This document shows positions 4,478-17,994 of a stretch of DNA of 64,000 nt, piece by piece. The first letter of the stretch is position 1. The number at the start of each line of letters is the position of its first letter. The notes beneath the pieces are model-generated. The model was not told the origin of the DNA. It worked only from the letters and a program-made list of their open reading frames with translations, and made no database searches. Made by a program: the position numbers and the translations under genes. The DNA comes from Promicromonospora soli (lineage in GTDB: Bacteria; Actinomycetota; Actinomycetes; Actinomycetales; Cellulomonadaceae): assembly GCF_014653785.1 (NCBI RefSeq), contig NZ_BNAS01000002.1, positions 859,128 to 923,127 of the forward strand. Direction: 5' to 3'.

Positions 4478-5854
4478 ATGACTGAGCACACCTTCGGGTT
4501 CCGTACGCGGGCCCTCCACGCCGGCGGTATCCCCGACTCGGCGACCGGGGCACGGGCGGTGCCGATCTACCAGACCACGTCGTTCGTGTTCCAGGACACC
4601 GACGACGCCGCGAGCCTCTTCGCGCTCCAGAAGTACGGCAACGTCTATTCGCGCATCGGCAACCCGACCGTCGCAGCGCTCGAGGAGCGGATGGCCTCGC
4701 TGGAGGGCGGCATCGGCGCGGTCGCGACGGCGTCGGGCATGTCGGCCGAGTTCATCACGTTCGCCGCGCTCGTCGGCGCGGGGGACCATGTGGTCGCTTC
4801 CGCTCAGCTGTACGGCGGAACGGTGACGCAGCTCGACGTCACGCTGCGCCGATTCGGGGTCCGGACGACCTTCGTGCCCGGGACGGACCCAGCGGACTAC
4901 GCCGCAGCGATCACGCCCGAGACCAAGGTCCTGTACACCGAGGTCGTGGCGAACCCGTCGGGCGAGATCGCCGACCTCGAAGGGCTCGCCGAGGTGGCCC
5001 ACGCCGCGGGCATCCCGCTCGTCGTGGACGCGACGCTAGCGACGCCCTACCTGGTGCGGCCGATCGAGCACGGTGCCGACATCGTGATCCACTCCGTGAC
5101 GAAGTTCCTCGGCGGGCACGGCACCACGCTCGGCGGCGTCGTCGTCGAGTCGGGCCGGTTCGACTGGGGCAACGGCAAGTTCCCGCAGATGACCGAGCCC
5201 GTCCCGGCCTACGGGAACGTGCGGTGGTGGGCAAACTTCGGCGAGTACGGGTTTCTCACCAAGCTGCGGTCCGAGCAGCTGCGTGACATCGGCCCCGCGC
5301 TCTCGGCGCAGTCGGCCTTCCAGCTGTTGCAGGGCATCGAGACCCTTCCGCAACGACTGGACGCGCAGCTGGCGAACGCCCGCGCTGTGGCCGAGTGGCT
5401 CGACGCCGACCCGCGCGTCTCCTACGTCCTCTGGGCGGGCCTTCCGTCGCACCCGCACCACGAGCGAGCGCAGAAATACCTGCCGCTCGGCCCGGGTGCG
5501 GTCTTCGCGTTCGGTCTACAGGTCCCGGCCGGGGACGGCGGGACCGCGGTCGGGGACGACGGGCGGGTCGGGGTGGGGCCACCGGACCACGTGCCGGTTC
5601 TCGACGGCCGCGAAGCCGGCCGGCTGTTTATCGAGTCGCTCCAGCTCGCGTCGCACCTGGCGAACGTCGGCGACTCGCGAACCCTGGTGATCCACCCGGC
5701 GTCGACCACGCACCAACAGCTGACGATCGAGCAGCTCGAGGCGGCGGGCGTGCCCGAGGACCTCGTCCGCATCTCCGTGGGCCTGGAGGACGTCGAGGAC
5801 ATCCTCTGGGATCTCGACCAGGCTCTGACCACGGCGACCGGAATGAACAGATGA
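4478..5854 (+). CDS. metY: O-acetylhomoserine sulfhydrylase (Cys/Met metabolism PLP enzyme)
   Basis: A PLP-dependent enzyme that makes homocysteine (or methionine with methanethiol) from O-acetylhomoserine. It shows the Cys/Met-metabolism fold: FxTRALHAG at the N-terminus, YSRIGNPT, and the PLP lysine in SVTKFLGGHGT (about residue 208). Near residue 350 there is a Gly/Asp-rich insertion (GDGGTAVGDDGRVGVG) that the family normally lacks. The ATG at 4478 follows a GGAAGG ribosome site and yields the standard start MTEHTFGF; the frame is open further upstream. The stop overlaps the next start by 4 bp, so the two genes are probably co-translated. Upstream (4306-4477) I see no recognisable SAM riboswitch. 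Confidence 0.92.
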   Translation: MTEHTFGFRTRALHAGGIPDSATGARAVPIYQTTSFVFQDTDDAASLFALQKYGNVYSRIGNPTVAALEERMASLEGGIGAVATASGMSAEFITFAALVGAGDHVVASAQLYGGTVTQLDVTLRRFGVRTTFVPGTDPADYAAAITPETKVLYTEVVANPSGEIADLEGLAEVAHAAGIPLVVDATLATPYLVRPIEHGADIVIHSVTKFLGGHGTTLGGVVVESGRFDWGNGKFPQMTEPVPAYGNVRWWANFGEYGFLTKLRSEQLRDIGPALSAQSAFQLLQGIETLPQRLDAQLANARAVAEWLDADPRVSYVLWAGLPSHPHHERAQKYLPLGPGAVFAFGLQVPAGDGGTAVGDDGRVGVGPPDHVPVLDGREAGRLFIESLQLASHLANVGDSRTLVIHPASTTHQQLTIEQLEAAGVPEDLVRISVGLEDVEDILWDLDQALTTATGMNR

Positions 5855-6333
5855 GCGAGACCTGGCAGGGCCCGGGCGCCCAGGACCGGTTGCGGATCCT
5901 GCGTTCGACCAGGTCGATAGCGATCGTCGGGGCGTCGCCGAACCCGGCGCGCGCGAGCTACTTCGTGGCGACATATCTGCTCTCCTCCTCTCCGTACGAC
6001 GTGTACTTCGTGAACCCGCGGGCGACCGAGATCCTGGGGCATCCCGTGTACCCGAGCCTGTCCGAGCTGCCGGTCGTCCCCGATCTCGTGGACGTCTTCC
6101 GGCGGCACGAGGACCTGCCCGGCGTGCTGGCCGAGACGCTGGCGGTGGGAGCCAGGACCCTGTGGCTGCAGCTCGGCTCGTGGCACGAGGACGTGGCGCG
6201 CGACGCTGAGGCTGCCGGGCTGAACGTAGTGATGGACCGGTGCATCAAGATCGAGCACGCGCGGTTCTATGGCGGGCTCCACCTGGCGGGTTTTGACACG
6301 GGCGTGATCAGCTCCCGCCGGGCGGACCGCTAG
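5851..6333 (+). CDS. CoA-binding domain protein (YccU-like)
   Basis: A 160-residue single-domain protein of the CoA_binding/YccU family with a Rossmann-like nucleotide site: SIAIVGASPNPARASY near the N-terminus and a conserved C-terminal half ending VMDRCIKIEHARF. Family members bind CoA in vitro but their role is not established. The start ATGA overlaps the metY stop. In many actinobacteria this gene follows O-acetylhomoserine sulfhydrylase, suggesting a link to sulfur amino-acid metabolism; that link is inference. Confidence 0.88.
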   Translation: MSETWQGPGAQDRLRILRSTRSIAIVGASPNPARASYFVATYLLSSSPYDVYFVNPRATEILGHPVYPSLSELPVVPDLVDVFRRHEDLPGVLAETLAVGARTLWLQLGSWHEDVARDAEAAGLNVVMDRCIKIEHARFYGGLHLAGFDTGVISSRRADR

Positions 6334-6389
6334 AGCCGGATCTCGCCGCTCGCGCGTACGGCGTTGCCGGAGCCCGACGAGATCAGCCA

Positions 6390-6395
6390 TAGAGT
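6390..6395 (+). promoter_or_regulatory. -10 element (TAGAGT) of a probable leaderless promoter
   Basis: TAGAGT fits TAnnnT and ends 9 bases before the ATG at 6405, with no ribosome site between, so the transcript probably starts at or next to the start codon. Confidence 0.45.
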
Positions 6396-6404
6396 CACTG
6401 CACG

Positions 6405-7049
6405 ATGAGCACACGCGTAGAACCGGTCAGTGAGGCGCTCCTCGTCGAGCGCGTCGTCGACCTCGTCCTTGCCCGTGCTGACGGGCCGGTGGGGCAGCGG
6501 CACAGCGGCACCGCGGTCCGGCTGCTCGTCGACGGCCACCCGTCCACGCACCCGGAGCGGCTGGCCGATGCGCTCGTCGCACCGTTCGAAGCTGCGGGCC
6601 GCCCCACGGCACGCGTCAGGGTCAGCGATTTTCTCCGTCCGCGGTCCCTCCGCCTCGAGCGGGGGCGCGAGGACCCGGACAGTCTGCTCGACGGCTGGAT
6701 CGACGTCGGCTCAATGAACCGCGAGGTGCTGACGCGCGTCGTCGAGCAGCAGGAGTATCTGCCCAGCCTGCGCGACCCCGAGACCGACCGCGCCACGCGT
6801 GCCGGCTATGTCCGCGCTGCACCGGGCACCGTTGTTCTGCTCGACGGTGCGCTCGCGATCGGCCGAGGGCTTGCCGTCGACATCTCGGTGCACCTCGCGC
6901 TCAAGCGTGCGACGCTCCGGCGTCGGACGCCGCCTGACGAAGCGTGGGTGCTCCCCGCCTACGAGCGGTACACCCAGGAGATCGAGAGCGCGCCCGACCT
7001 GGTGGTCCGGGTCGACCATCCGGACCACCCTGCCCTCGTGCACGCGTGA
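6405..7049 (+). CDS. uridine kinase-like protein lacking a P-loop
   Basis: Resembles actinobacterial uridine kinase/phosphoribulokinase-family proteins: a strand-turn of the form VRLLVDG, the substrate-site segment VSDFLRPRSLRLERG, and the later VLLDGALAI and ALKRATLRRR stretches. Where kinases carry GxxGxGKT this protein has VDGHPSTHPERLADALV, with no Gly-Lys-Ser/Thr, so ATP binding by the usual Walker A loop looks impossible. It may be a pseudokinase or regulatory homologue. The ATG at 6405 has a leaderless-type promoter. It ends 7 bp from the convergent VOC gene. Confidence 0.7.
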   Translation: MSTRVEPVSEALLVERVVDLVLARADGPVGQRHSGTAVRLLVDGHPSTHPERLADALVAPFEAAGRPTARVRVSDFLRPRSLRLERGREDPDSLLDGWIDVGSMNREVLTRVVEQQEYLPSLRDPETDRATRAGYVRAAPGTVVLLDGALAIGRGLAVDISVHLALKRATLRRRTPPDEAWVLPAYERYTQEIESAPDLVVRVDHPDHPALVHA

Positions 7050-8024: not shown

Positions 8025-9248
8025 GTGCTCGACACCATCACCCTCGCCGAGAAGGCCCTCGCCGCGGCATGGGGCGCGGCACCACTCGACACCGCAGCTC
8101 CGACCGCGACACCGCATACCGCCGGGTTCGCCGGCGCGCGCCTCGTGGACCCCGCCGATCTTGGCGGCTCCGCCCGCTCGCGCGTGCTCCGCTGCCGGGT
8201 CGAGGCGCACGAAGAGCAACGGGCCGAGCACGCAGCCGCAGGCAAGCAGCTCCCGGCCACGGTGATCGTCAAGCGGTTCCTGTCCGACGACGGCGGGTTC
8301 GTGCGCGAGAGCACCGGCCTCGACCTGTGCCCGCGCACGCCGAGCCTGCTCGCGCTGGATCGGGAGCATCGTCTGATCGTCATGTCCGATCTCGGGGACC
8401 TGCCCACGCTTGCCGACCTGCTCCTCGGCGACGACCGGGGCGCGGCCTGGGAGGGCGCTCGGACCTGGGCGCGAGCGCTCGGGCAGGCGACGGGCGGCTC
8501 CCGCGGCCAGGTCGCCGAGGCTCGGCACCGACTGGCCGACGCCGAGCCCTGGAACGCGGAGGCCGAGCTTCGCAACGGCGTCGACCGCCTCCTCGAAGCC
8601 GCGACAGCACGCAGTGCCGGTACCAGTCCCGGCCGCAGCGCCCATGCCAGCCCCACCACCACACCACCGACCAGGTCCGAGATCGAGTCCGAGCTCGCCG
8701 CCACCCAGCACCTGCGCACCCCGGGCGCGGCCGCGATCGTCTCGCCCACCGACACCTGCCCCGACAACGCGGTGCTCGGCCCGGACGGCTGGTGGTTCCT
8801 CGACCTGGAGGGCACCGACGTGGAGCACGCCGCGTTCGCGGCTGCGTACGCAGCTCTGCCCTTCGCGACGTGCTGGTGTGTGTTCGACCCGCCGCCCGGC
8901 CTCACCGACATGCTCCTCACCGAGTTATCGGCAGGCCTCGCCGAGCAGGCGCCTGACATCGTCACTGACCCCGGCTGGGGTCTCGCCGTCCGGCAAGCGT
9001 GCGCGGTCTATCTGGTGCTCGTCACCGGCTGGCTGTGGAAAAGCACCGTGGAGGGACGCCCGCTCGTCGGGCCGGCAGGCCAGTCGCCGTCCTACCGGCA
9101 GCTCATGGTGTCCCGATGGCGATGGGGAGCCCTCAACCTGCGCCAGGACTTCCCGGCGCTCGCGGCAGCCATGGGCGACGCCGCGGCCTGGGCGCTCGAG
9201 ACGTGGGGACTTGATGTCGAGCCAACGGGCTATCGCGCCTTTCGCTGA
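8025..9248 (+). CDS. aminoglycoside-phosphotransferase-like protein of unknown substrate
   Basis: 407 residues with a faint APH/choline-kinase fold. The candidate catalytic segment is SPTDTCPDNAVLGPDGWWFLDLEG (about residues 238-262, given in parts: PTDTCPDN, then FLDLEG). It keeps the Asp and Asn of the HxDxxxxN motif and the following metal-binding Asp, but the leading His is Pro. VIVKRFL near residue 82 would be the ATP-site lysine strand. A low-complexity Thr/Pro/Ser stretch lies near residues 195-220. Start GTG at 8025. The last 116 bases overlap the convergent arsRC1 gene. No evidence that it confers resistance. Confidence 0.6.
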   Translation: MLDTITLAEKALAAAWGAAPLDTAAPTATPHTAGFAGARLVDPADLGGSARSRVLRCRVEAHEEQRAEHAAAGKQLPATVIVKRFLSDDGGFVRESTGLDLCPRTPSLLALDREHRLIVMSDLGDLPTLADLLLGDDRGAAWEGARTWARALGQATGGSRGQVAEARHRLADAEPWNAEAELRNGVDRLLEAATARSAGTSPGRSAHASPTTTPPTRSEIESELAATQHLRTPGAAAIVSPTDTCPDNAVLGPDGWWFLDLEGTDVEHAAFAAAYAALPFATCWCVFDPPPGLTDMLLTELSAGLAEQAPDIVTDPGWGLAVRQACAVYLVLVTGWLWKSTVEGRPLVGPAGQSPSYRQLMVSRWRWGALNLRQDFPALAAAMGDAAAWALETWGLDVEPTGYRAFR

Positions 9249-10341
9249 CCTTCGCGCCGAGCGCGGTCGCGACGGCGCTCCATTGACGCCAGGCCAGGCG
9301 CGGTAGCCCGCGCCGCGCTAGTCCCGCAGGAAGCGGGTCGGCCCCCGACCCCGGCGAAGCCTCCACCGCGTCGATCTCCGCGATCAGCGCCCGCACGCGC
9401 GCGGTGATGTCGTCGACGATGCGCTCGACCTCCTCGACCGAGCGGCCCGCCGGGTCGTCCAGGGGCCAGTCGAGGTACCGGCGCCCAGGGTAGACGGGGC
9501 AGGAGTCGCCGCAGCCCATCGTCACGATCACGCCGGAGGTCCGCACGATGTCGTCCGTGAGCTCGCGCGGGAACTCGATGAGCCCGTCGAGGCCGCGGCG
9601 GGCGAGGACGGTCTCCGTCATCGCGTCGGGCTCGGCCACCGGCCTGGTCCCGGCGGTGCGCACGCGGATGCGGTCGCCCGCGAGGCGCCGGGTGACCGCG
9701 GCCGCGATCTGGGACCGGCCCGTGTTGGTGATGCAGACGAACAGCACATCGTGTGGCGAGCCGTGGGTCACCTCGGCCATGGCGGCGAGACGGTCGGTAG
9801 CGAGCCACGCGGTGAGCGCCGGCAGGTGCCCGAACGACCCGCCCTGCTTGCTCAGCGCCGAATAGCACTCGCGGACCAGCCGGTCGACGGTTTCCGCGCC
9901 CGCGTTGGCGGCGAACCCGGCGGAGAGCGTCTCGGTCAGCCGGGCAAGGAGAGCGTCGTGATCGCGCACGTCGAGCGCCGCTTCGCCCGCGTGGCGTGGG
10001 GCCGCGAGGGCCGCAGCCCCGAAGCCGGCGATCCCGCGCGACGACACGCGGTACAGCGGTGCGTTCGAGCGCGAGCGCCGGCAGCGCGACCGGTCGGAGA
10101 GCGAACGGTCAGAGAGCGACCGCTCAGCCTGAGCTCCAGGCGGCATCGGCCCGACGAGGGCGACCAGCCCCACCGCGACCAGCGCCTCGAGATCCTGTCC
10201 CACGTCCGCTCCGGCCGGCGGGGCGAGATCCTCGGCGGTGGAGCGGCCCGCGGGGTGCGTGAGCATACGCGCCAGCAGACGCAACCGCTCGGGGTTCGCC
10301 ATCGTGAGCCGCTGCGCGGAGCGCAGCTCGTCGGGGTTCAT
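9133..10341 (-). CDS. ArsR-like HTH / arsenate reductase fusion (arsRC1)
   Basis: A 402-residue fusion. Residues 1-115 look like a winged helix of ArsR type but degenerate; 125-190 match the three-helix dimerisation segment common before actinobacterial ArsC; 198-325 are a thioredoxin-type arsenate reductase with the CX5R loop VCITNTGRS (Cys203, Arg209), the further cysteines in MGCGDSCP (277, 281) and the Asp-loop DWPLDDP. It would reduce arsenate to arsenite. Residues 74-84 carry a tandem SLSDR repeat. After about residue 326 an Arg/Pro-rich tail of some 75 residues runs into the opposite gene, which is not part of the family. Start ATG 10341 follows AAGGAGA; arsR lies 47 bp upstream on the same strand. 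Confidence 0.85.
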   Translation of the reverse strand: MNPDELRSAQRLTMANPERLRLLARMLTHPAGRSTAEDLAPPAGADVGQDLEALVAVGLVALVGPMPPGAQAERSLSDRSLSDRSRCRRSRSNAPLYRVSSRGIAGFGAAALAAPRHAGEAALDVRDHDALLARLTETLSAGFAANAGAETVDRLVRECYSALSKQGGSFGHLPALTAWLATDRLAAMAEVTHGSPHDVLFVCITNTGRSQIAAAVTRRLAGDRIRVRTAGTRPVAEPDAMTETVLARRGLDGLIEFPRELTDDIVRTSGVIVTMGCGDSCPVYPGRRYLDWPLDDPAGRSVEEVERIVDDITARVRALIAEIDAVEASPGSGADPLPAGLARRGLPRLAWRQWSAVATALGAKVSERRDSPLARHQVPTSRAPRPRRRPWLPRAPGSPGAG

Positions 10342-10388
10342 GGATTCTCCTTGGCCGACGGCGGTGTGGCCGAATGCCAGGAGCGAGG

Positions 10389-10793
10389 CTACCTCGCCGC
10401 TTCGCTGAGCAGCGCACCGAGCCGGTCCAGCGAGCCGGGCACCACCGAGTAGTAGGCCCACTTCCCGCGCTGCTCCCGGGCGAGCAGACCGGCGTCGACC
10501 AGGATCTTCAGGTGGTGGCTCACGGTGGGCTGGCTCAGGCCGACGGGCTCGGTGAGGTCGCACACACAGGCCTCGCCGCCCTCGTGCGCCGCGACGATCG
10601 AGAGCAGCCGCACGCGAGTGGGGTCGCCCAGCGCCTTGAAGGAGCGGGCGAGGTCGGCGGCCGCAGCCGGGTCGGCCGCCTCACGCACGATGGGGGCGCA
10701 GCAGGCGCCCGACGTCGGAGCCGCGGATGTCGCGTCGGACGTCGGATCGGGTGTCGACACGGCCGGTGAGAGCTCGAGCACGATCGTCGTCAT
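10389..10793 (-). CDS. arsR: arsenite-responsive repressor ArsR
   Basis: A 134-residue ArsR/SmtB winged-helix repressor that should release DNA when it binds arsenite. The recognition helix is GLSQPTVSHHLKIL. Cys76 and Cys78 (ACVCDL) sit in the classic metal-site position, and an N-terminal Cys31-Cys32 pair (SGACCAP) resembles the CgArsR type, in which an N-terminal CC and one later Cys bind As(III). Start ATG at 10793. It is the first gene of an operon with arsRC1 and is divergent from the ArsO-like gene. Confidence 0.92.
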   Translation of the reverse strand: MTTIVLELSPAVSTPDPTSDATSAAPTSGACCAPIVREAADPAAAADLARSFKALGDPTRVRLLSIVAAHEGGEACVCDLTEPVGLSQPTVSHHLKILVDAGLLAREQRGKWAYYSVVPGSLDRLGALLSEAAR

Positions 10794-10846
10794 GCCCCCA
10801 TCTTGCCACGCATCGAAGTTTCTGGATATGTTCGGGCTAGCAACGC

Positions 10847-10862
10847 ATCGACGATCTTCGAT
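10847..10862. promoter_or_regulatory. candidate ArsR operator
   Basis: ATCGA-N6-TCGAT is a perfect inverted repeat between arsR and the ArsO-like gene. A second ATCGAA occurs at 10812-10817 with TTCG at 10831-10834. The position, between divergent arsenic genes next to arsR, suits an ArsR operator. Confidence 0.5.
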
Positions 10863-10882
10863 CTGAAGTCGCCGAGGCACGG

Positions 10883-12463
10883 GTGACAGGGAAGACGGTG
10901 ACGGCAAAGATGACGACAGTGGGACAGACGACAGCGCAGAGCCTTCCGGTCGTGGTGATCGGCGCGGGGCCCGTGGGCCTGGCCGCTGCGGCGCACCTCG
11001 CCGAGCGTGGGCTCAAGCCCTTGGTCCTGGAGGCCGGCGACGGCGCCGGTGCCGCCATCGCACGGTGGGGCCACGTGCGCCTCTTCTCTCCGTGGCGGTA
11101 CGACGTCGACGCCGCGGCCCGCCGCCTGCTCGCGGCCGGTGCCGGGGCAGCCGCGAACCCGTGGACCGAGCCCAGCCCGGACGCGCTGCCCACCGGCGCC
11201 GAGCTCGTCGAGCAGTACCTCCAGCCCCTGGCCGAGGCGCTCGTCGACCGTGCGGGAGCGCAGGTCCGGTACGGCACGCGAGTGCTCGCCGTGACCCGGG
11301 ACGGGGCGGACCGCTCCCGTTCCCTGGGGCGCGAGCGGATGCCGTACCTGGTGCGGCTGGCCACCGACCGCGGTGCGGACGGCCCTGCAGGCCGGACCAG
11401 CACCGTCGAGGAGGTCCGCGCGCTGGCGGTGATCGACGCGTCCGGGACGTTCGACCAGCCCAACCCGCTCGGGGTCTCGGGCCTGCCGGCGCTGGGCGAG
11501 GAGGAGTCGGCGGGATTCCTCGCGGGGGCCCTGCCGGACGTGCTCGGCCGTGACCGGGAGCGGTTCGCGGGACGACACACGCTGGTGGTCGGCATGGGGC
11601 ACTCGGCGGCGAACACCCTGCTCAGCCTGGTCCAGCTTGCCGAGCAGGACGACGCAGGGCAGAAGACCCGGATCACCTGGGCGATCCGCGGCGGGTCGCC
11701 GCGCCGCCTGTACGGCGGCGGGACCGATGACGAGCTCCCGGCGCGCGGCCTGCTCGGCACCCGCCTGCGTGACGCGGTGGAGGCGGGCCGGGTCGAGCTG
11801 CTCACGCGGGTGGCGATCGACCGGCTGGAGCCCCTCTCCGGGGAGACCGACGGGGCGAGCGGGACCGGAAAGACGGTGCGCGTTCTCGGCACCGCCCGCC
11901 GCGACGGCGAGGACGGCGCGCTCGACCTGACCGTGCACAACATCGCGGCCGCCACCGGGTTCCGCCCCGACCTGACGATGCTGCGGGAGGTCCGGCTCGA
12001 CCTCGACCCCGTGGTGGAGGCGCCGCGGCAGATCGCGTCGCTCATCGACCCCAACTTCCACTCCTGCGGCACCGTCCCCGCGCACGGCGAGGCCCAGCTG
12101 ACCCACCCGGATGCCGGGTTCTACCTGGTCGGGATGAAGTCCTACGGCCGCGCCCCGACGTTCCTGCTGGCCACGGGCTACGAGCAGGTCCGCTCGATCG
12201 CGGCGGCGCTGGCCGGCGACCGCGCAGCGGCAGACGCCGTGGAGCTGAGCCTTCCGCAGACCGGCGTCTGCTCGTCCGACCTCGCGATGGCGGCCGACGA
12301 GAACGGCGTGGTCTCACCGGACGGGCTCGTCGCGGCTGCATCGGGGGAGGGCTCGTGCTGCGGCGCTCCGGCAGGCCCGCAGCAGGTATCGATCGGGGCC
12401 GCCCCGGTCGGGGCCGGTCTCGGGTTCGGCACCGGGGTCGTGCACGGCCGCTCCGGCGACTGA
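10883..12463 (+). CDS. ArsO-like FAD/NAD(P)-dependent oxidoreductase
   Basis: A 526-residue flavoprotein with a dinucleotide-binding N-terminus (VVIGAGPVGLAAAAHLAERG) and a second Rossmann motif (LVVGMGHSAANTLL, about residue 230). It matches the flavin monooxygenase-like proteins named ArsO in arsenic operons, whose chemistry is uncertain. The C-terminus carries cysteines (TGVCSSDL near 461 and GSCCGAP near 490) that could bind arsenite. The GTG at 10883 is the first start after the ArsR operator; an ATG at 10910 is an alternative. Divergent from arsR, convergent with the aquaporin. Confidence 0.82.
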   Translation: MTGKTVTAKMTTVGQTTAQSLPVVVIGAGPVGLAAAAHLAERGLKPLVLEAGDGAGAAIARWGHVRLFSPWRYDVDAAARRLLAAGAGAAANPWTEPSPDALPTGAELVEQYLQPLAEALVDRAGAQVRYGTRVLAVTRDGADRSRSLGRERMPYLVRLATDRGADGPAGRTSTVEEVRALAVIDASGTFDQPNPLGVSGLPALGEEESAGFLAGALPDVLGRDRERFAGRHTLVVGMGHSAANTLLSLVQLAEQDDAGQKTRITWAIRGGSPRRLYGGGTDDELPARGLLGTRLRDAVEAGRVELLTRVAIDRLEPLSGETDGASGTGKTVRVLGTARRDGEDGALDLTVHNIAAATGFRPDLTMLREVRLDLDPVVEAPRQIASLIDPNFHSCGTVPAHGEAQLTHPDAGFYLVGMKSYGRAPTFLLATGYEQVRSIAAALAGDRAAADAVELSLPQTGVCSSDLAMAADENGVVSPDGLVAAASGEGSCCGAPAGPQQVSIGAAPVGAGLGFGTGVVHGRSGD

Positions 12464-12476
12464 ACCTGCCGCCGGT

Positions 12477-12516
12477 CCGTTCTGCCGAGGTAGCCATGAC
12501 TACCTCGGCAGAACGG
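12477..12516. terminator. bidirectional terminator, perfect 17-bp stem
   Basis: Bases 12477-12493 pair perfectly with 12500-12516 around a 6-base loop. The hairpin fills the gap between the stop of the ArsO-like gene and the stop of the convergent aquaporin. The GCCGAGGTAG core of the stem recurs in the hairpin at 63883-63920. Confidence 0.85.
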
Positions 12517-13269
12517 TCAGGAGCGACCAGCGACACCCGCCCGGGCCGGGTACAGCACGGTGGCCAGCCCCACGCCGACCGCCCCGCCGACCAGCTGCGC
12601 CAGCACGAACGGCAGCACCGAGTCCGGGGCGATGCCCGCGAAGGTGTCGCTGAACACACGGCCAACGGTGACCGCCGGGTTGGCGAACGACGTCGAGCTG
12701 GTGAACCAGTACGCGGCGCCGATGTAGGCACCCACCGCCGGTGCGATCAGCGTGTCGCGGCCGGCGCGCAGCAGACCGAAGATCACGAGCACGAGGCCGG
12801 CGGTGGCAATCACCTCGGCGAGGAGCGTCGCGCCCGACGCCCGGTCGGTGGTCGCGATGGCCGTCGGTTCGCCGAACATCGCGTTCGCCAGCAGTGCGCC
12901 GCCGATCGCCCCCGTCACCTGCCCGGCAATGTACGCGGCCACGTCGCCGAGTCCCGCGCCCCCCGGCTGGCGCCGCCCGAGGAGCCAGTCCACCAGGGTC
13001 ACCACGGGATTGAAGTGTGCCCCGCTCAGCGGCCCGAGCACGGCGATCAGCACGGCCAGCCCGAGCGCGGTGGCTATCGAGTTCTCCAGCAGCTGCAGTC
13101 CGACGTCGTCCGGCGACAGGTTCGCCGCCGCGATCCCGGACCCGACCACTATCGCGACCAGCAGCCCCGTCCCGAGGAACTCACCAGACGTCCGCCGCCA
13201 CAACGACGCGCTCACGCTCACAGGCGCCGACACGGGGGTGCCCGGGGCCGCGCTCACCGGTGCGCTCAC
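12517..13269 (-). CDS. MIP-family aquaglyceroporin (AqpS-like)
   Basis: A 250-residue membrane channel with six predicted helices and both half-helix motifs: HFNPVVT (NPV instead of NPA) and SFANPAVT. In arsenic operons such channels (Sinorhizobium AqpS is the known example) let arsenite formed by arsenate reductase flow out. That job fits here because no ArsB or Acr3 pump is present. The start is GTG at 13269, whose GTGA overlaps the stop of the triple-fusion gene, so translation is coupled. Third gene of the operon that starts with arsRC2. Confidence 0.88.
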   Translation of the reverse strand: MSAPVSAAPGTPVSAPVSVSASLWRRTSGEFLGTGLLVAIVVGSGIAAANLSPDDVGLQLLENSIATALGLAVLIAVLGPLSGAHFNPVVTLVDWLLGRRQPGGAGLGDVAAYIAGQVTGAIGGALLANAMFGEPTAIATTDRASGATLLAEVIATAGLVLVIFGLLRAGRDTLIAPAVGAYIGAAYWFTSSTSFANPAVTVGRVFSDTFAGIAPDSVLPFVLAQLVGGAVGVGLATVLYPARAGVAGRS

Positions 13270-15497
13270 GCGACGGGCTGCACGCCGAGCTCGGCGAGGA
13301 GGCCGCGTACGCGCCGCTCGATCTCGTCGCGGATGGGGCGGATAGCCTCGATGCCCTGGCCTGCGGGGTCGTCGAGCTCCCAGTCCTGGTAGTTCTTGCC
13401 CGGGTAGTACGGGCACGCGTCGCCGCAGCCCATCGTGATGACGGCGTCCGACGCCTCGACCGCGTCGTTCGTCAGGATCTTGGGCTTCTCGTCGCGGATG
13501 TCGATGCCCACCTCGAGCATGGCCTCCACGGCGACGGGGTTGATCTGCTCGGCGGGCATGGACCCGGCGGAGCGCACCTCGACGGCGCCGGCCGACAGGG
13601 CTCGGAGGAATCCGGCGGCCATCTGGGAGCGGCCCGCGTTGTGCACGCAGACGAACAGGGCTGACGGCTTGGTCGAGCTCGAGCTGGCGCTCGACGTCTC
13701 AGGAACGGATACGGGCACGGGGCTCTCCAGTGTGGTTCGGGGGTTTCTGTTCAGCCGGTAGTTCTGCTGGTAGTTCTGGTTGCCGCCCGAGAGGTTCGCG
13801 ACGTCCGCGAACCCCAGGTTGCGCAGCACGTTCTGGCCCGCGTTCCCGGTGACTCCCTTGTTGCAGTAGGTGACCGTGGGCAGCGCCGGGTCGAGCTCGC
13901 CCGACCGTTGCCGCAGCTCCGCCAGCGGGATGTGCACCGAGTCCGGCACTGCGGACTTCGCGCGGTCCTTCGCGGAGCGCACGTCCACCACCTGGATCGG
14001 CTCGCCGTCGGCCCGGCGCCGGTCCAGCTCGGCCGGGGCGACCAGCGGCGCCTGCCCGTGGATGGCGTTGGTCAACGCCATGCCGGTGTAGTGGACCGGG
14101 TCCTTGGTGGTGGCGTACGTGGGGGAGTAGGCGAGGTCCAGGTGGAACAGGTCGGCGACGTCGGCCCCGTAGGTGATGGCGGTGGCGAGCACGTCGATGC
14201 GCTTGTCCGCGCCGGACGCCCCGATGGCCTGTGCGCCCAGCAGCCGTCCGGTCGCGCGGTCGGCGACCGCCTTGATGACCAGGGGCTTGCCGCCCAGGTA
14301 CTCCGGCCGGTCGGGCTTGATGTTGTGCAGCACCTCGACGTCGTACCCGGCGGCGCGCGCCTGCCCCTCGGTGAACCCGGTCTGGGCGACGCCCAGGTCG
14401 AAGACCCGCACGATCGACGTGCCGAGGATCCCGCGGTGCTCGAGCGGCCCGCCGGTCATCGCGTCGCCCGCGATGCGGCCCATCTTGTTCGCGGTGGAGC
14501 CGAGCGGCACCCACACGGGCTCGCCGGTGATGACGTGGAAGGACTCGGCGACGTCCCCGACCGCCCAGACATGGTCAACGCTGGTGCGCTGCCGGCGGTC
14601 GACGGCGACGGCGCCTGTCGGGCCGAGCCGCACACCCGCCTGCTCGGCAAGGTCGACGTTGGGCCGGACGCCGACGGAGATGATCACGAGCTCCGCGTCG
14701 ATGTGCGCCGTGTCTGCTCCCACCCCGCTACCGACCCCGTCGATCTCCACGCCGGCCACGCCGTCGTCGTCGGACGTGATACCGACGACCTTCGTGGCCA
14801 GCCGCAGATCCACACCGTGCTTGCGCAGCTCGGCGTCGACCCGGGCGGACATGTCCGCGTCCATGCGGGGCATGGCGTGGTCGAGCGCCTCGACGACCGT
14901 CACCGACAGGCCCCGGGCCACGAGCTGTTCCGTCATCTCGAGCCCGATGTAGCCGGCCCCGACGACGACGGCGCTCCGCACCGTCCTGCCCCTCGACTCG
15001 CTGTCCTCGATCCATGCGCGGATGGCGCCGGCGTCGCTGGGGGTACGCAGGGAGAACACGCCGGTGGCGCCCACGCCGGGGATCGGCGGAGCGACGGCGC
15101 GGACGCCGGTCGCGAGCACCAGCTCGTCGTAGCTGTCGACGAACATGCGGCCGGTGGCCAGGTCGCGGACCGTCACGGTGCGGCCGTCCGCGTCGACCGC
15201 GACGACCTCGTGCCCGGTGTGCACGTCGACGTCGTACCGGGCCTTGAACCAGGCCGGGTCGCGCGGCGTCAGGTCGTCGATGTCGGCGACCTCGCCGCCC
15301 ACGAAGTAGGGCAGGCCGCAGCCGGAGTAGGAGATGTCGTGGTCGCGCTCGTACACGGTGATCTGCGCGGTCTCGGTGTTGCGGCGCGCCTTCGCGGCGG
15401 CCGACGTACCGGCCGCCACCGACCCGACGACGACGATCTTCAGATCGGGCTGCACGGGCCGTCTCGGGTGGGGCCTCAGGTCGGGCGAGGTACTCAT
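13266..15497 (-). CDS. CoA-disulfide-reductase-like / rhodanese / arsenate reductase triple fusion
   Basis: 743 residues, three modules. About 18-475: FAD/NAD(P) disulfide reductase of the CoADR/NADH-oxidase group, with VVVGSVAAG, the redox Cys60 in SYSGCGLPYFVGG and the NADH motif GAGYIGLE. About 485-580: rhodanese with Cys545 in YCNKGVTG. About 590-611: Ser-rich linker. 612-743: arsenate reductase with FVCVHNAGRS (Cys617, Arg623) and MGCGDACP (Cys691, Cys695). I infer that the flavoprotein and rhodanese cysteines supply electrons, or a low-molecular-weight thiol, to the ArsC domain in one chain. The ATG start overlaps the arsRC2 stop and the stop overlaps the aquaporin start. The modules are certain; the electron route is hypothesis. 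Confidence 0.92.
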   Translation of the reverse strand: MSTSPDLRPHPRRPVQPDLKIVVVGSVAAGTSAAAKARRNTETAQITVYERDHDISYSGCGLPYFVGGEVADIDDLTPRDPAWFKARYDVDVHTGHEVVAVDADGRTVTVRDLATGRMFVDSYDELVLATGVRAVAPPIPGVGATGVFSLRTPSDAGAIRAWIEDSESRGRTVRSAVVVGAGYIGLEMTEQLVARGLSVTVVEALDHAMPRMDADMSARVDAELRKHGVDLRLATKVVGITSDDDGVAGVEIDGVGSGVGADTAHIDAELVIISVGVRPNVDLAEQAGVRLGPTGAVAVDRRQRTSVDHVWAVGDVAESFHVITGEPVWVPLGSTANKMGRIAGDAMTGGPLEHRGILGTSIVRVFDLGVAQTGFTEGQARAAGYDVEVLHNIKPDRPEYLGGKPLVIKAVADRATGRLLGAQAIGASGADKRIDVLATAITYGADVADLFHLDLAYSPTYATTKDPVHYTGMALTNAIHGQAPLVAPAELDRRRADGEPIQVVDVRSAKDRAKSAVPDSVHIPLAELRQRSGELDPALPTVTYCNKGVTGNAGQNVLRNLGFADVANLSGGNQNYQQNYRLNRNPRTTLESPVPVSVPETSSASSSSTKPSALFVCVHNAGRSQMAAGFLRALSAGAVEVRSAGSMPAEQINPVAVEAMLEVGIDIRDEKPKILTNDAVEASDAVITMGCGDACPYYPGKNYQDWELDDPAGQGIEAIRPIRDEIERRVRGLLAELGVQPVA

Positions 15498-16618
15498 CGG
15501 GTTCCTTCAGTCGTCGGCACAGAGGTCGGCACGGAGGTCGGCACAAAGGTCGGCGGAGGCGTCAGCAGCGATGCGAGCAGTCCGCGCACGCGCCCGTCCA
15601 GCTCGTCCCGGATGGCGGCGACCCCGGCCGGGGAGGCGAGGGCGGGGTCGCCCACTATCCAGTCCTCGTACCGCTTGCCGGGCAGCACAGGGCACGCGTC
15701 GCCGCAGCCCATGGTCACCACGACGTCGGCCGCGCGGACGGCGTCGTCGGTCAGGGGTTTGGGGTAGAAGCGGGTGACGTCGTCCACCGTGTCCGCGGCG
15801 GCCGTGTCGCCGAGCTCCTCGAGGATTGCGCGCACCGCCGCGTGCACGTCGCTCGCGGGCGCGGAACCGGCGGACCGGACCACCACCCGGTCTCCTGCAT
15901 AGTGCTGCATCAGGGCGGCGGCGAGCTGCGACCGCCCGGCGTTGGCGACGCACACGAAGAGCACCTGTGGCTTGTGCCCGGCGTCCAGCGCCCGCACCTT
16001 CTCCGCGTCGATGAGGCGCTGCCGCGCGAAGTGCTCCGTGAGCGCGACCAGGTACGCGGCGTTCCCGCCACGGCGGGCGAGCGCCGCGTACGACTCCCGG
16101 ACCACGCGGAAGCACTCGCTCTCGGGGGTGCCGGTAAAGCGCTCGGCGAGCGACGCCGCGAGCCGGTCGAGGGCCGGGTCCACGTTGCCGAGGCCGGTCA
16201 AGGTGCTCTGCCCGTCCGGGCCGCCGGGCCCGGCCTGGGTGATGTGCGCAGCGCGCGCCACCTCGATCGCGGCCGGGGCGAACCGGTCCAGCAGGGTCGT
16301 GACCGCGCCCCGATAGCCGGGCGCGATCCGGTACCAGACCCAGGTGCCGCGCCGGTCGGAGGTGATCAGGCCGACGTCGCGCAGCACCTTGAGGTGGTGC
16401 GACACGGTGGGTTGCAGGACGGCGGTCAGGGTCGCGAGCTCGCCCGCCGTAGTCTCGCCGGTGGGCGAGGTGGCGATGGCCGACAGCATGCGGAGCCGCA
16501 GCGGGTCGGCAATCGCCTTGAGCGTCGCGGCGAGATCGGCGGCGGCGTCGGCCCCGATCGCGTGCGCCTCGGCCGACGTCGCCGCAGCTATCCCGTCACT
16601 CCCGCGCTGTATCGACAT
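15494..16618 (-). CDS. ArsR / arsenate reductase fusion (arsRC2)
   Basis: 374 residues: a winged-helix ArsR domain (about 25-105; recognition helix VLQPTVSHHLKVLRD), a three-helix segment (148-212) and an arsenate reductase (218-355) with FVCVANAGRS (Cys223, Arg229) and MGCGDACP. It would both repress and reduce arsenate. The HTH domain has no cysteine, so arsenite sensing through the usual CVC site is not possible. The C-terminus is a PTSV repeat encoded by three 12-bp repeats at 15513-15548. First gene of a three-gene coupled operon; the ATG at 16618 lies inside the palindromic operator, with no strong ribosome site. Confidence 0.9.
   Translation of the reverse strand: MSIQRGSDGIAAATSAEAHAIGADAAADLAATLKAIADPLRLRMLSAIATSPTGETTAGELATLTAVLQPTVSHHLKVLRDVGLITSDRRGTWVWYRIAPGYRGAVTTLLDRFAPAAIEVARAAHITQAGPGGPDGQSTLTGLGNVDPALDRLAASLAERFTGTPESECFRVVRESYAALARRGGNAAYLVALTEHFARQRLIDAEKVRALDAGHKPQVLFVCVANAGRSQLAAALMQHYAGDRVVVRSAGSAPASDVHAAVRAILEELGDTAAADTVDDVTRFYPKPLTDDAVRAADVVVTMGCGDACPVLPGKRYEDWIVGDPALASPAGVAAIRDELDGRVRGLLASLLTPPPTFVPTSVPTSVPTTEGTR
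15513..15548. repeat. 12-bp tandem repeat in the arsRC2 tail
   Basis: Three near-identical 12-bp units (GTCGGCACxxAG) encode the repeated PTSV of the arsRC2 C-terminus. A whole-codon repeat like this can change copy number without shifting frame. Confidence 0.8.
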
Positions 16619-16646
16619 ATCTCTATGTTGACACTCGTCGATACAG
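16607..16646. promoter_or_regulatory. nested palindromic operator over the arsRC2 start
   Basis: Outer arms CTGTATCGA (16607-16615) and TCGATACAG (16638-16646) are a perfect inverted repeat. Inside them TCGACATA (16612-16619) faces TATGTTGA (16624-16631) with one mismatch. The arsRC2 start codon is inside the site. The sequence resembles ArsR/SmtB operators, so autoregulation by arsRC2 or ArsR is likely. Confidence 0.6.
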
Positions 16647-16752
16647 TCCGCAAGCGTGGGTACGCACTCGGCAGCAGGCGTTCAGCAGACCGTCATCGTG
16701 GGTCCACCCGCTGGTCGGGCGGGCGCCAGCCCGGCCTCCGATCGTCGTGGGC

Positions 16753-17994
16753 ATGAGTGAGCAGACACCCGGCGCCACGCCGAGCGAGATCATCCCCGGC
16801 GAGACGGCCGAGAGCCAAGCGGGCGGCGTCGACCGCCGGACGTTCCTGTCCCTGAGCAGCCTCGGCGCGGCGACCGTCGCGACGGCGGGCGTTGCCGCGC
16901 CGGCGTCGGGCGCCACGCTGCTGGGCCGGCACCCGCAGCGTTCGCTGCGGTTCGGGCGGGACGGCAAGTTCAAGATCGTGCAGTTCAACGACACGCAGGA
17001 CGACGAGAAGATCGACCGCCGCACGCTCGAGCTCATGCGTGCGGTGCTGGACGACGAGCGGCCGGACTTCGTGGTCCTCAACGGCGACAACATCACGGGC
17101 GGCTGCGACACCGCGCTCGAGATGCACCAGGCGATGAACAACGTGGTGCAGCCGATGGAGGAGCGGGCGGTGCCGTGGGCCATCACCTTCGGCAACCACG
17201 ACGAGGACTCGACGCCGGACAGCGGCGTCGACGAGGCCGACATGCTGGCCTTCTACCGGTCGTACCGCTACAACGTGAACGGCCCGACGGCCCGCGGCGC
17301 CGACGGCCCGATCACTGGGCAGGGCAACTCGAACCTGCTGATCGAGGGCACGAACGGTCGGCCCGCATTCAACCTCTGGCTGCTCGACTCCGGGCGGTAC
17401 GCCCCCGACCTGCTGGCCGGCCAGGACTTCGAGGGCTACCCCACGTGGGACTGGCTGCGCATGGACCAGGTCAAGTGGTACTACGACACGTCGGTGCAGC
17501 TGGAGCGCCAGTTCGGGCACGCGGTCCCGTCCCTCATGTTCATCCACATCCCGCTGTGGGAGTACCGGTTCATGTGGTTCGGCTCGGTCGACGGGCGGTC
17601 CGACGCCGACCACGAGCGCGGCAGGGCGCGGCACCGGATCGAGGGCGAGCGGAACGAGGAGGAGTGCCCCGGGCCGTTCAACTCCGGCATGTTCTCGGCG
17701 ATCCAGCACCGCGGCGACGTGCGCGGCGTGTTCTGCGGCCACGACCACGTGAACACCTACGTGGGCGACTACTACGGTGTGCAGCTCGGGTACGCGGGCA
17801 ACACGGGGTTCGGCACGTACGGCCTCGATGGTGCCGAACGGAACCGGCTGCGCGGCGCGCGCGTCTACGACCTCGACGAGTCGGCCGACGGCGTGCTGAC
17901 CGGCACGCGGATGCGGTTCGCCGGCGAGTACGGCATCGACCTCACCGCGAACGACCAGTGGATGGAGCCGCTCCCCCTGCCGGAAGGGCGCTGA
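16753..17994 (+). CDS. Tat-exported metallophosphoesterase
   Basis: A calcineurin-like phosphoesterase, 413 aa. The N-terminus has a twin-arginine signal (DRRTFLSLSSLG, about residues 27-38, then a hydrophobic Ala/Val stretch), so it is folded before export. Metal-site motifs follow: FNDTQ, VVLNGDNITGG, FGNHDE, MFIHIP and GVFCGHDHVN. This order matches purple-acid-phosphatase/Siw-type metallophosphoesterases; the substrate is unknown. ATG 16753 is preferred over a GTG two codons upstream; neither has a clear ribosome site. Divergent from the ars operon. Followed by a hairpin that reaches into the MOSC gene. Confidence 0.88.
   Translation: MSEQTPGATPSEIIPGETAESQAGGVDRRTFLSLSSLGAATVATAGVAAPASGATLLGRHPQRSLRFGRDGKFKIVQFNDTQDDEKIDRRTLELMRAVLDDERPDFVVLNGDNITGGCDTALEMHQAMNNVVQPMEERAVPWAITFGNHDEDSTPDSGVDEADMLAFYRSYRYNVNGPTARGADGPITGQGNSNLLIEGTNGRPAFNLWLLDSGRYAPDLLAGQDFEGYPTWDWLRMDQVKWYYDTSVQLERQFGHAVPSLMFIHIPLWEYRFMWFGSVDGRSDADHERGRARHRIEGERNEEECPGPFNSGMFSAIQHRGDVRGVFCGHDHVNTYVGDYYGVQLGYAGNTGFGTYGLDGAERNRLRGARVYDLDESADGVLTGTRMRFAGEYGIDLTANDQWMEPLPLPEGR

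Follow-up and report, generated by a model that had tools for sequence, protein, structure and literature searches.

Can an arsenate reductase carry its own source of reducing power? The question is raised by one gene within a 64,000-nucleotide stretch of the Promicromonospora soli genome (contig NZ_BNAS01000002.1, positions 859,128 to 923,127; hereafter the window), which encodes a single chain of 743 residues in which a flavoprotein resembling coenzyme A disulfide reductase (CoADR), a rhodanese domain (Rhd) and an arsenate reductase (ArsC) follow one another. An earlier reading of this DNA, here called the original prediction, proposed that the chain is a self-contained, NAD(P)H-driven arsenate reductase. 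Judged by its sequence and those of its relatives, the gene genuinely joins two arsenic modules, both of them under selection, and such a fusion is rare; whether it also amounts to a self-contained arsenate reductase is a matter of conjecture.

The fusion frame is open on the minus strand, which the original prediction did not specify, with an ATG start and one terminal stop, and a plus-strand reading of the same interval is ruled out by an internal stop. The three predicted parts are borne out by Pfam matches far above chance, namely Pyr_redox_2 (residues 20-319, E = 1.3e-62), Pyr_redox_dim (363-462, 1.9e-16), Rhodanese (488-578, 6.7e-14) and LMWPc (614-734, 2.3e-19), and residues 20-469 match CoA_CoA_reduc at 8.9e-124. 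The protein contains five cysteines in all. Three of them, Cys60 (SYSGCGLPYF), Cys545 (YCNKGVTGN) and Cys617 (FVCVHNAGRS), lie where the original prediction had placed them; Cys691 and Cys695, which it omitted, lie in MGCGDACPYYPG, and the class of the ArsC part hinges on both. The glycine motifs for FAD (G25/G30) and NAD (G180/G182/G185) are intact, as had been claimed.

How far does the front part resemble a known enzyme? It has the FAD and NAD Rossmann motifs, the dimerisation domain, the single N-terminal redox Cys and the C-terminal rhodanese with its own Cys that define CoADR-RHD proteins, and it lacks the active-site surroundings of the ordinary members (S[FY]ANCG, AKDPVNM). Because the residues near Cys60 differ from those of ordinary CoADR-Rhd, we are unsure of the label "CoA disulfide reductase", and the curated cut-offs for that enzyme are not reached (413.6 against 578.8 bits for TIGR03385, and 363.4 against 458 and 277.2 against 394 bits). 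The extended CX5R loop of the Acr2 rhodanese domain is also missing, since the loop of the fusion, CNKGVTG, has no Arg; the same mismatch with Acr2 is reported for a Fusibacter relative in the accessible part of PMC5525254. An AlphaFold model of the single chain (24 sequences; a dimer is expected) consists of three folded parts, with a mean predicted local distance difference test score (pLDDT) of 84.3 and a predicted TM score of 0.64. The pLDDT falls below 50 in the linker, in residues 1-14 and in parts of 396-401 and 456-478, the last of these poorly predicted segments adjoining the flavin site.

The ArsC part is closest to 3t38 (147 bits), which we take to be Cg_ArsC1', and has three Cys in matching places, with Cys691 and Cys695 aligned to GCGDVC. 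As in thioredoxin-coupled ArsC, the CX5R loop (CVHNAGRS, containing Cys617) is accompanied by two further Cys, here with three residues between them. A single Cys without a second Cys pair is the mark of mycothiol-coupled ArsC (Cg_ArsC2 type), and the ArsC of the window has three. The profile PF01451 is matched above its cut-off, and the curated ArsC cut-offs are not reached (TIGR02691, 77.6 against 174.3 bits; NF010053, 79.1 against 215). According to the part of PMC4360819 available, the electrons of Cg_ArsC1' come from thioredoxin, and ArsC1 and ArsC2 behave like mycothiol transferases.

The gene is part of an ars operon, in which it is preceded by a gene for ArsR-ArsC and followed by one for an aquaporin (Table 1). 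The same domain order, sought in other genomes, was found in three further genomes of the family and in a lineage of Propionibacteriaceae. Within the family the uninterrupted fusion occurs in 4 of 221 genomes, all of one genus (G000, the source of the window, with G483, G480 and G481); three loci with the joined frame (L009, L010, L011) appear to be those of G483, G480 and G481. Since these three genomes have the same joined frame with linkers that differ in length and sequence, an assembly accident is unlikely. More generally, a misreading of any kind, whether a wrong frame or an assembly error, is scarcely credible when every domain is under purifying selection and the identical joined frame recurs in other assemblies. 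Among the four fused genes the ratio of nonsynonymous to synonymous substitution (dN/dS) is 0.17-0.20 for CoADR, 0.13-0.21 for Rhd and 0.09-0.21 for ArsC, and synonymous divergence (dS) between the ArsC parts is 0.09-0.39. Judged by these ratios all domains are under purifying selection and the linker, where dN/dS is near 1 in most pairs, drifts.

Two relatives carry the same genes in split form, in the same frame with one stop between them (TGA in L119/G490, TAG in L120/G486), and all six fused and split linkers keep the sequence GGAG, five to seven bases and GTG, the GTG being codon 594 in the window. These split relatives and the shared GGAG-GTG make loss of the stop between neighbouring genes the likeliest history of the fusion. 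The direction of change within the genus is not settled by a DNA tree of 12 rows (approximately unbiased (AU) test, p 0.128). With no stop left in the fusion, translation that reaches the end of the rhodanese part is bound to run on into ArsC.

What kind of gene was joined to arsC? A rapidly built tree has 94 rows, duplicates or short-flank loci (L001-L008, L086-L144) and fragments with fewer than 380 aligned residues having been excluded from it and from the alignment. In this tree the window protein falls inside a 71-row clade on a branch marked 100*. The other side holds 18 of the 20 controls and three other rows, and the two remaining controls form a long branch just outside the clade. The clade is recognised by SYSxCG at Cys60, TTKDPVHYTG and the rhodanese loop CNKGVTGN. 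Cys60 is present in 71/71 rows and Cys545 in the 63/63 with that column filled; S58, T464 and Y470 occur in 71/71 clade rows as against at most 2 of 23 control rows. Within the rhodanese loop N546, G548, N552, Q555 and N556 are kept in all 63 rows with the domain, K547 in 59 and T550 in 60, and 20 of 22 control rows have Arg at the place of T550. By both tree position and loop, then, the window protein is a member of what we call the ars-type CoADR-Rhd clade.

Most members of this clade have arsenic genes as neighbours. Usable flanks (at least 3.5 kb on both sides) were available for 60 of 70 rows, and in 42 of these there is an ars marker other than ArsR (ArsA, ArsD, ArsB, Acr3 or ArsC), the proportion being 15/19 in Actinomycetota and 27/41 in Bacillota/Fusobacteriota. 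Only 1 of 20 control loci has any ars marker; the controls were chosen among more distant relatives, with flanks of up to 6 kb, and all but two of them reach 3.5 kb in either direction. The other 18 usable clade rows have none of these markers. An ArsP permease gene adjoins two marker-free clade loci (L041, L042), among nine neighbours of six loci scanned. An ArsC of the low-molecular-weight protein tyrosine phosphatase (LMW-PTP) fold lies nearby in 15/19 Actinomycetota rows versus 5/41 rows of Bacillota/Fusobacteriota. Of 118 relatives the genome scan retained 80, and since ArsC contains one of the six patterns used, these counts may be biased toward ArsC-bearing Actinomycetota loci. Four of seven plasmid records examined have arsD, arsA and a transporter gene beside the CoADR-Rhd gene, among them NC_009130 and NZ_CP088903, where arsD, arsA and an efflux pump are annotated; the other three records lack this set, although one of them has ArsR and a permease, and one (L150) lies outside the clade. 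The front part of the fusion thus belongs to a CoADR-Rhd clade of its own, whose members, in Bacillota and Actinomycetota, have ars genes as neighbours more often than not.

Within the family, an ars-type CoADR-Rhd was found in 21 of 221 genomes (rows of at least 68% identity; the next rows reach at most 47%). In 18 of these 21, the source genome included, ArsC is either fused to it or encoded no further away than the 1-2 kb of flank retrieved; the query for this count also contained ArsC, but the rows were ranked by the flavoprotein too. In three family genomes (L126, L127, L128) the ars-type gene adjoins one for another ArsC-like protein, which is joined to ArsR and shares 33-34% identity with the ArsC of the window.

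The second lineage with the fusion bears directly on its meaning. Two Propionibacteriaceae-type loci, L019 (Actinomycetota bacterium) and L020 (Propionibacterium sp.), carry CoADR-Rhd-ArsC in a single frame; being 99.8% identical over 11.7 kb, they are counted as one. In L074 (Propioniciclava flava, 5377-6915) the rhodanese-ArsC end is joined to unrelated sequence that replaces most of the flavoprotein. When 394 genomes of the class were searched with the Propionibacteriaceae fusion, two matched at E <= 1e-130, one being its own genome. The ArsC of these fusions has the loop CVHNAGKS without a second or third Cys, its best match is 3rh0 (99 bits), presumably a mycothiol-type ArsC, and it stands apart from the ArsC of the window in the ArsC tree. 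On these grounds the Propionibacteriaceae fusion probably arose separately. In that case the same reductase module has been joined to two ArsC classes with different electron donors, and a function that both classes could share, for instance the recycling of a small thiol, would be favoured over a relay through Cys691/Cys695.

Given the architecture, gene order, separate clade, purifying selection, linker character and four-genome occurrence that sequence comparison establishes, how might the parts work together? Our reading, which we hold tentatively and at somewhat less than even confidence, is that the NADH module re-reduces a thiol spent in arsenic handling, with a flexible linker holding this flavoprotein-Rhd part to an ArsC of the three-Cys, thioredoxin class. 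As(V) would be taken by ArsC on Cys617, in a reaction ending with a Cys691-Cys695 disulfide, and within the flavoprotein module electrons would pass from NADH to FAD to Cys60. The spent thiol would then be re-reduced through a shuttling small thiol (CoA or another), or through Cys545 acting as a mobile thiol. The fusion would raise the local concentration of reductase at ArsC, the NADH module would not have to be the sole reductant of ArsC, and As(III) would exit through the neighbouring aquaporin. In favour of this reading are the domains and their Cys, the overlap of starts and stops with the adjoining genes, the closeness of ArsC in 18 of 21 family genomes, the low dN/dS of the domains, the ars setting of the clade and the joining of one module to two ArsC classes. 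The complete domains, the full set of active-site Cys, purifying selection, the ars operon and the second fusion with another ArsC class also lend partial support to the original prediction, in which electrons or persulfide sulfur would pass from domain to domain.

Several results weigh against such coupling. The reductase part has no CxxC dithiol, and the protein contains only five Cys, so that to re-reduce a disulfide in a protein Cys60 and Cys545 would have to act one after the other, perhaps together with a small thiol. ArsC matching that of the window at E <= 1e-20 occurs in 204 of the 221 family genomes and the flavoprotein in 21, with both in only 17; four of the 21 (G371, G504, G505, G514) have no ArsC match at that threshold. 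ArsC of this kind is therefore commonly found without the flavoprotein and needs none. Likewise 36 of the 41 Bacillota/Fusobacteriota loci have no LMW-PTP-fold ArsC in the fetched flank, glutaredoxin-type ArsC not having been sought. Free ArsC may also be made, since the internal ribosome site and GTG start are kept. Tree tests do not firmly reject a single origin for the ArsC parts of the fusions (AU p 0.061, or 0.291 with the Promicromonosporaceae ArsC family), so that the case for two origins is chiefly the difference between them in ArsC class and in Cys set. Finally, thioredoxin reductase (400.5 bits) and mycoredoxin (104.7 bits) both score above their curated cut-offs in the source genome, as does MshC (549.5 bits, with its neighbours in frame), so that ordinary electron donors are at hand; no mycothione reductase there reaches its curated cut-off (best 249.4 against 635.65 bits).

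Perhaps, then, the chain simply carries two separate arsenic activities, with ArsC using thioredoxin as usual and the CoADR-Rhd part having a job of its own, the same as in those Bacillota where no ArsC is close by, either reducing sulfane sulfur on thiols or arsenic (persulfides, thioarsenates) or keeping As(III)-carrying thiols reduced. We regard this as the main rival and a serious possibility, if on balance a doubtful one. It would explain why the Bacillota/Fusobacteriota gene lies beside arsD, arsA, arsB or acr3 far more often than beside arsC (27/41 versus 5/41), and the near-fixed CNKGVTGN loop, with Arg at the T550 place in the controls, would mark a changed substrate site. This loop resembles the CRKGVT loop of thiosulfate sulfurtransferase. 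By itself, however, such a division of labour leaves unexplained both the fusion to ArsC in two lineages and the fact that 18 of the 21 family genomes have ArsC fused to the gene or close to it. A further and rather improbable reading would make the chain one NADH-driven enzyme for arsenate and thioarsenate, in which ArsC reduces As(V), Cys545 frees arsenite by stripping the sulfane sulfur from monothioarsenate, and the persulfide so formed is reduced by the flavoprotein; if so, the ars-type CoADR-Rhd would supply a step for handling thioarsenate that many ars operons of Bacillota have seemed to lack. A thiosulfate analogy for thioarsenate is attributed to Edwardson 2014 in the available part of a citing paper, and a limited literature search found no thioarsenate-handling rhodanese enzyme.

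Could the tether be without consequence, a tolerated read-through after stop loss, with a free or appended ArsC that uses thioredoxin and nothing passing between the domains? The single in-frame stop by which G490 and G486 separate the same genes, the retention of ribosome site and GTG in all six forms, the near-neutral linker in most pairs, the open fused/split order on the tree and the thioredoxin reductase gene would all fit. Against it, the joined frame has been retained in four genomes whose ArsC parts differ by an appreciable dS, and the fusion is found in Propionibacteriaceae as well; we consider it unlikely.

The remaining features of the region are collected in Table 1. The upstream ArsR-ArsC gene also carries a Phosphatase-like_N domain. 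Rfam gave no match in 8500-17000 of the window; within 12000-17000 a sigma-70 promoter scan found none, and a terminator scan found three terminator-like sites, all on the plus strand. Neither the Acr3 family (PF01758) nor ArsB (PF02040) is matched at E <= 0.001 anywhere in the source genome, which makes the MIP channel of the operon the likely arsenite exit; AqpS of Sinorhizobium is a described model for such an exit (PMC6205960, available part). The same genome has a second, ordinary CoADR-Rhd copy (G000:C9:62834-64549, 40% identity), whose flanks contain no ars marker (L171).

Table 1. Coordinates of the fusion gene, its parts and neighbouring genes in the window
Feature	Position	Strand	Remarks
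Triple-fusion coding sequence (P0001)	13266..15497	-	743 residues; ATG start overlaps the stop codon of ArsR-ArsC, the gene upstream (ATGA)
CoADR-like flavoprotein domain, residues 20-470	14088..15440	-	Cys60 codon 15318-15320
Rhodanese domain, residues 488-578	13764..14036	-	Cys545 codon 13863-13865; loop CNKGVTGN
Disordered linker, residues 586-607	13677..13742	-	pLDDT under 50; dN/dS 0.36-2.29 over residues 579-608 (20 codons, a rough value)
GGAG, 6 bases, GTG (Val594)	13716..13728	-	Ribosome site and start codon for ArsC, either vestigial or still in use; also in relatives with separate arsC
ArsC (LMWPc) domain, residues 614-734, three-Cys class	13296..13658	-	Cys617 (13647-13649), Cys691 (13425-13427), Cys695 (13413-13415)
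ArsR helix-turn-helix, three-helix bundle and ArsC, operon gene 1	15494..16618	-	374 residues; CVANAGRS and GCGDAC kept
MIP/aquaporin channel, operon gene 3	12517..13269	-	Likely start GTG 13269 overlaps the stop of the fusion (GTGA); listed open reading frame begins 13416
FAD/NAD(P) oxidoreductase	10883..12463	+	Resembles ArsO weakly (39.7 bits; cut-off 425)
ArsR/SmtB-family regulator	10389..10907	-	Further on from the MIP gene
Further ArsC, LMWPc with N-terminal Phosphatase-like_N domain	9133..10563	-	Start approximate

Other loci of the wider family showed features of their own. Four Acetobacterium-group copies have a run of nine A at the border of flavoprotein and rhodanese (7374-7382 in L061, L062 and L064; 3151-3159 in L063), where the flavoprotein frame ends right after the run and the rhodanese lies in another frame; in-frame relatives have nine A with a different lead-in (L051) or ten (L057), and programmed slippage is possible. 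On two Bacillaceae plasmids a small gene annotated as an "iron-sulfur cluster biosynthesis family protein" immediately precedes the CoADR-Rhd gene (L146, 5616-5888; L148, 5656-5934). A staphylococcal plasmid (L147, 9288-9617) has an ArsC-like open reading frame without the active-site start of the domain, missing from the incomplete PLSDB gene table.

Why should one unusual gene matter? At least dozens of ars loci (42 of the 60 usable) carry an ars-type CoADR-Rhd gene, the role of which was left open in 2017 (PMC5525254, available part). Its natural joining to ArsC, which is seen in two lineages and involves two classes of ArsC, is a rare clue to the role of this unexplained arsenic-resistance gene and offers a direct handle on whether the module acts on ArsC, on the thiol of ArsC or on sulfur-bearing arsenic.

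Comparison with known systems places the fusion between several described proteins. A literature search, which is no proof of absence, found no description of a CoADR-rhodanese-ArsC fusion or of Promicromonospora arsenic genes, and turned up nothing on a "CoA-persulfide reductase" with a rhodanese. A close described relative is that of Fusibacter sp. 3D3 (WP_069871897, "Pno"; locus L071; PMC5525254, PMC9751042), which belongs to the same clade, has the CNKGVTGN loop and lies beside arsR, acr3 and arsC. It was presented as a new family of unknown function, reported for Firmicutes; it is a separate, unfused gene, and the accessible part of that paper mentions no ArsC fusion (PMC5525254). The closest structural and sequence relatives of residues 20-578 are the CoADR-RHD or NADH-dependent persulfide reductases 3ntd, 3icr, 8a56 and 6pfz, which share the single flavoprotein Cys and the C-terminal rhodanese at 34-37% identity but have no ArsC, and the residues near Cys60 and the rhodanese loop differ from those of ordinary CoADR-RHD relatives. 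In 3t38 the first 81 residues have no counterpart in the aligned part, whereas the ArsC of the fusion sits behind CoADR-Rhd. The described ArsC classes depend for electrons on systems apart from themselves, based on thioredoxin, glutaredoxin or mycothiol (PMC9751042, PMC6514093, in the parts available), and a physically attached NADH module would, if our reading is correct, be a new coupling for ArsC. Other fusions are on record, namely ArsR-ArsC, aquaporin-ArsC in Salinispora and Acr3-ArsC in Mycobacterium (PMC6205960, PMC6514093, likewise in part). These too join ArsC to an arsenic-resistance partner, but their partners are sensors or transporters, and in the window the partner is a reductase.

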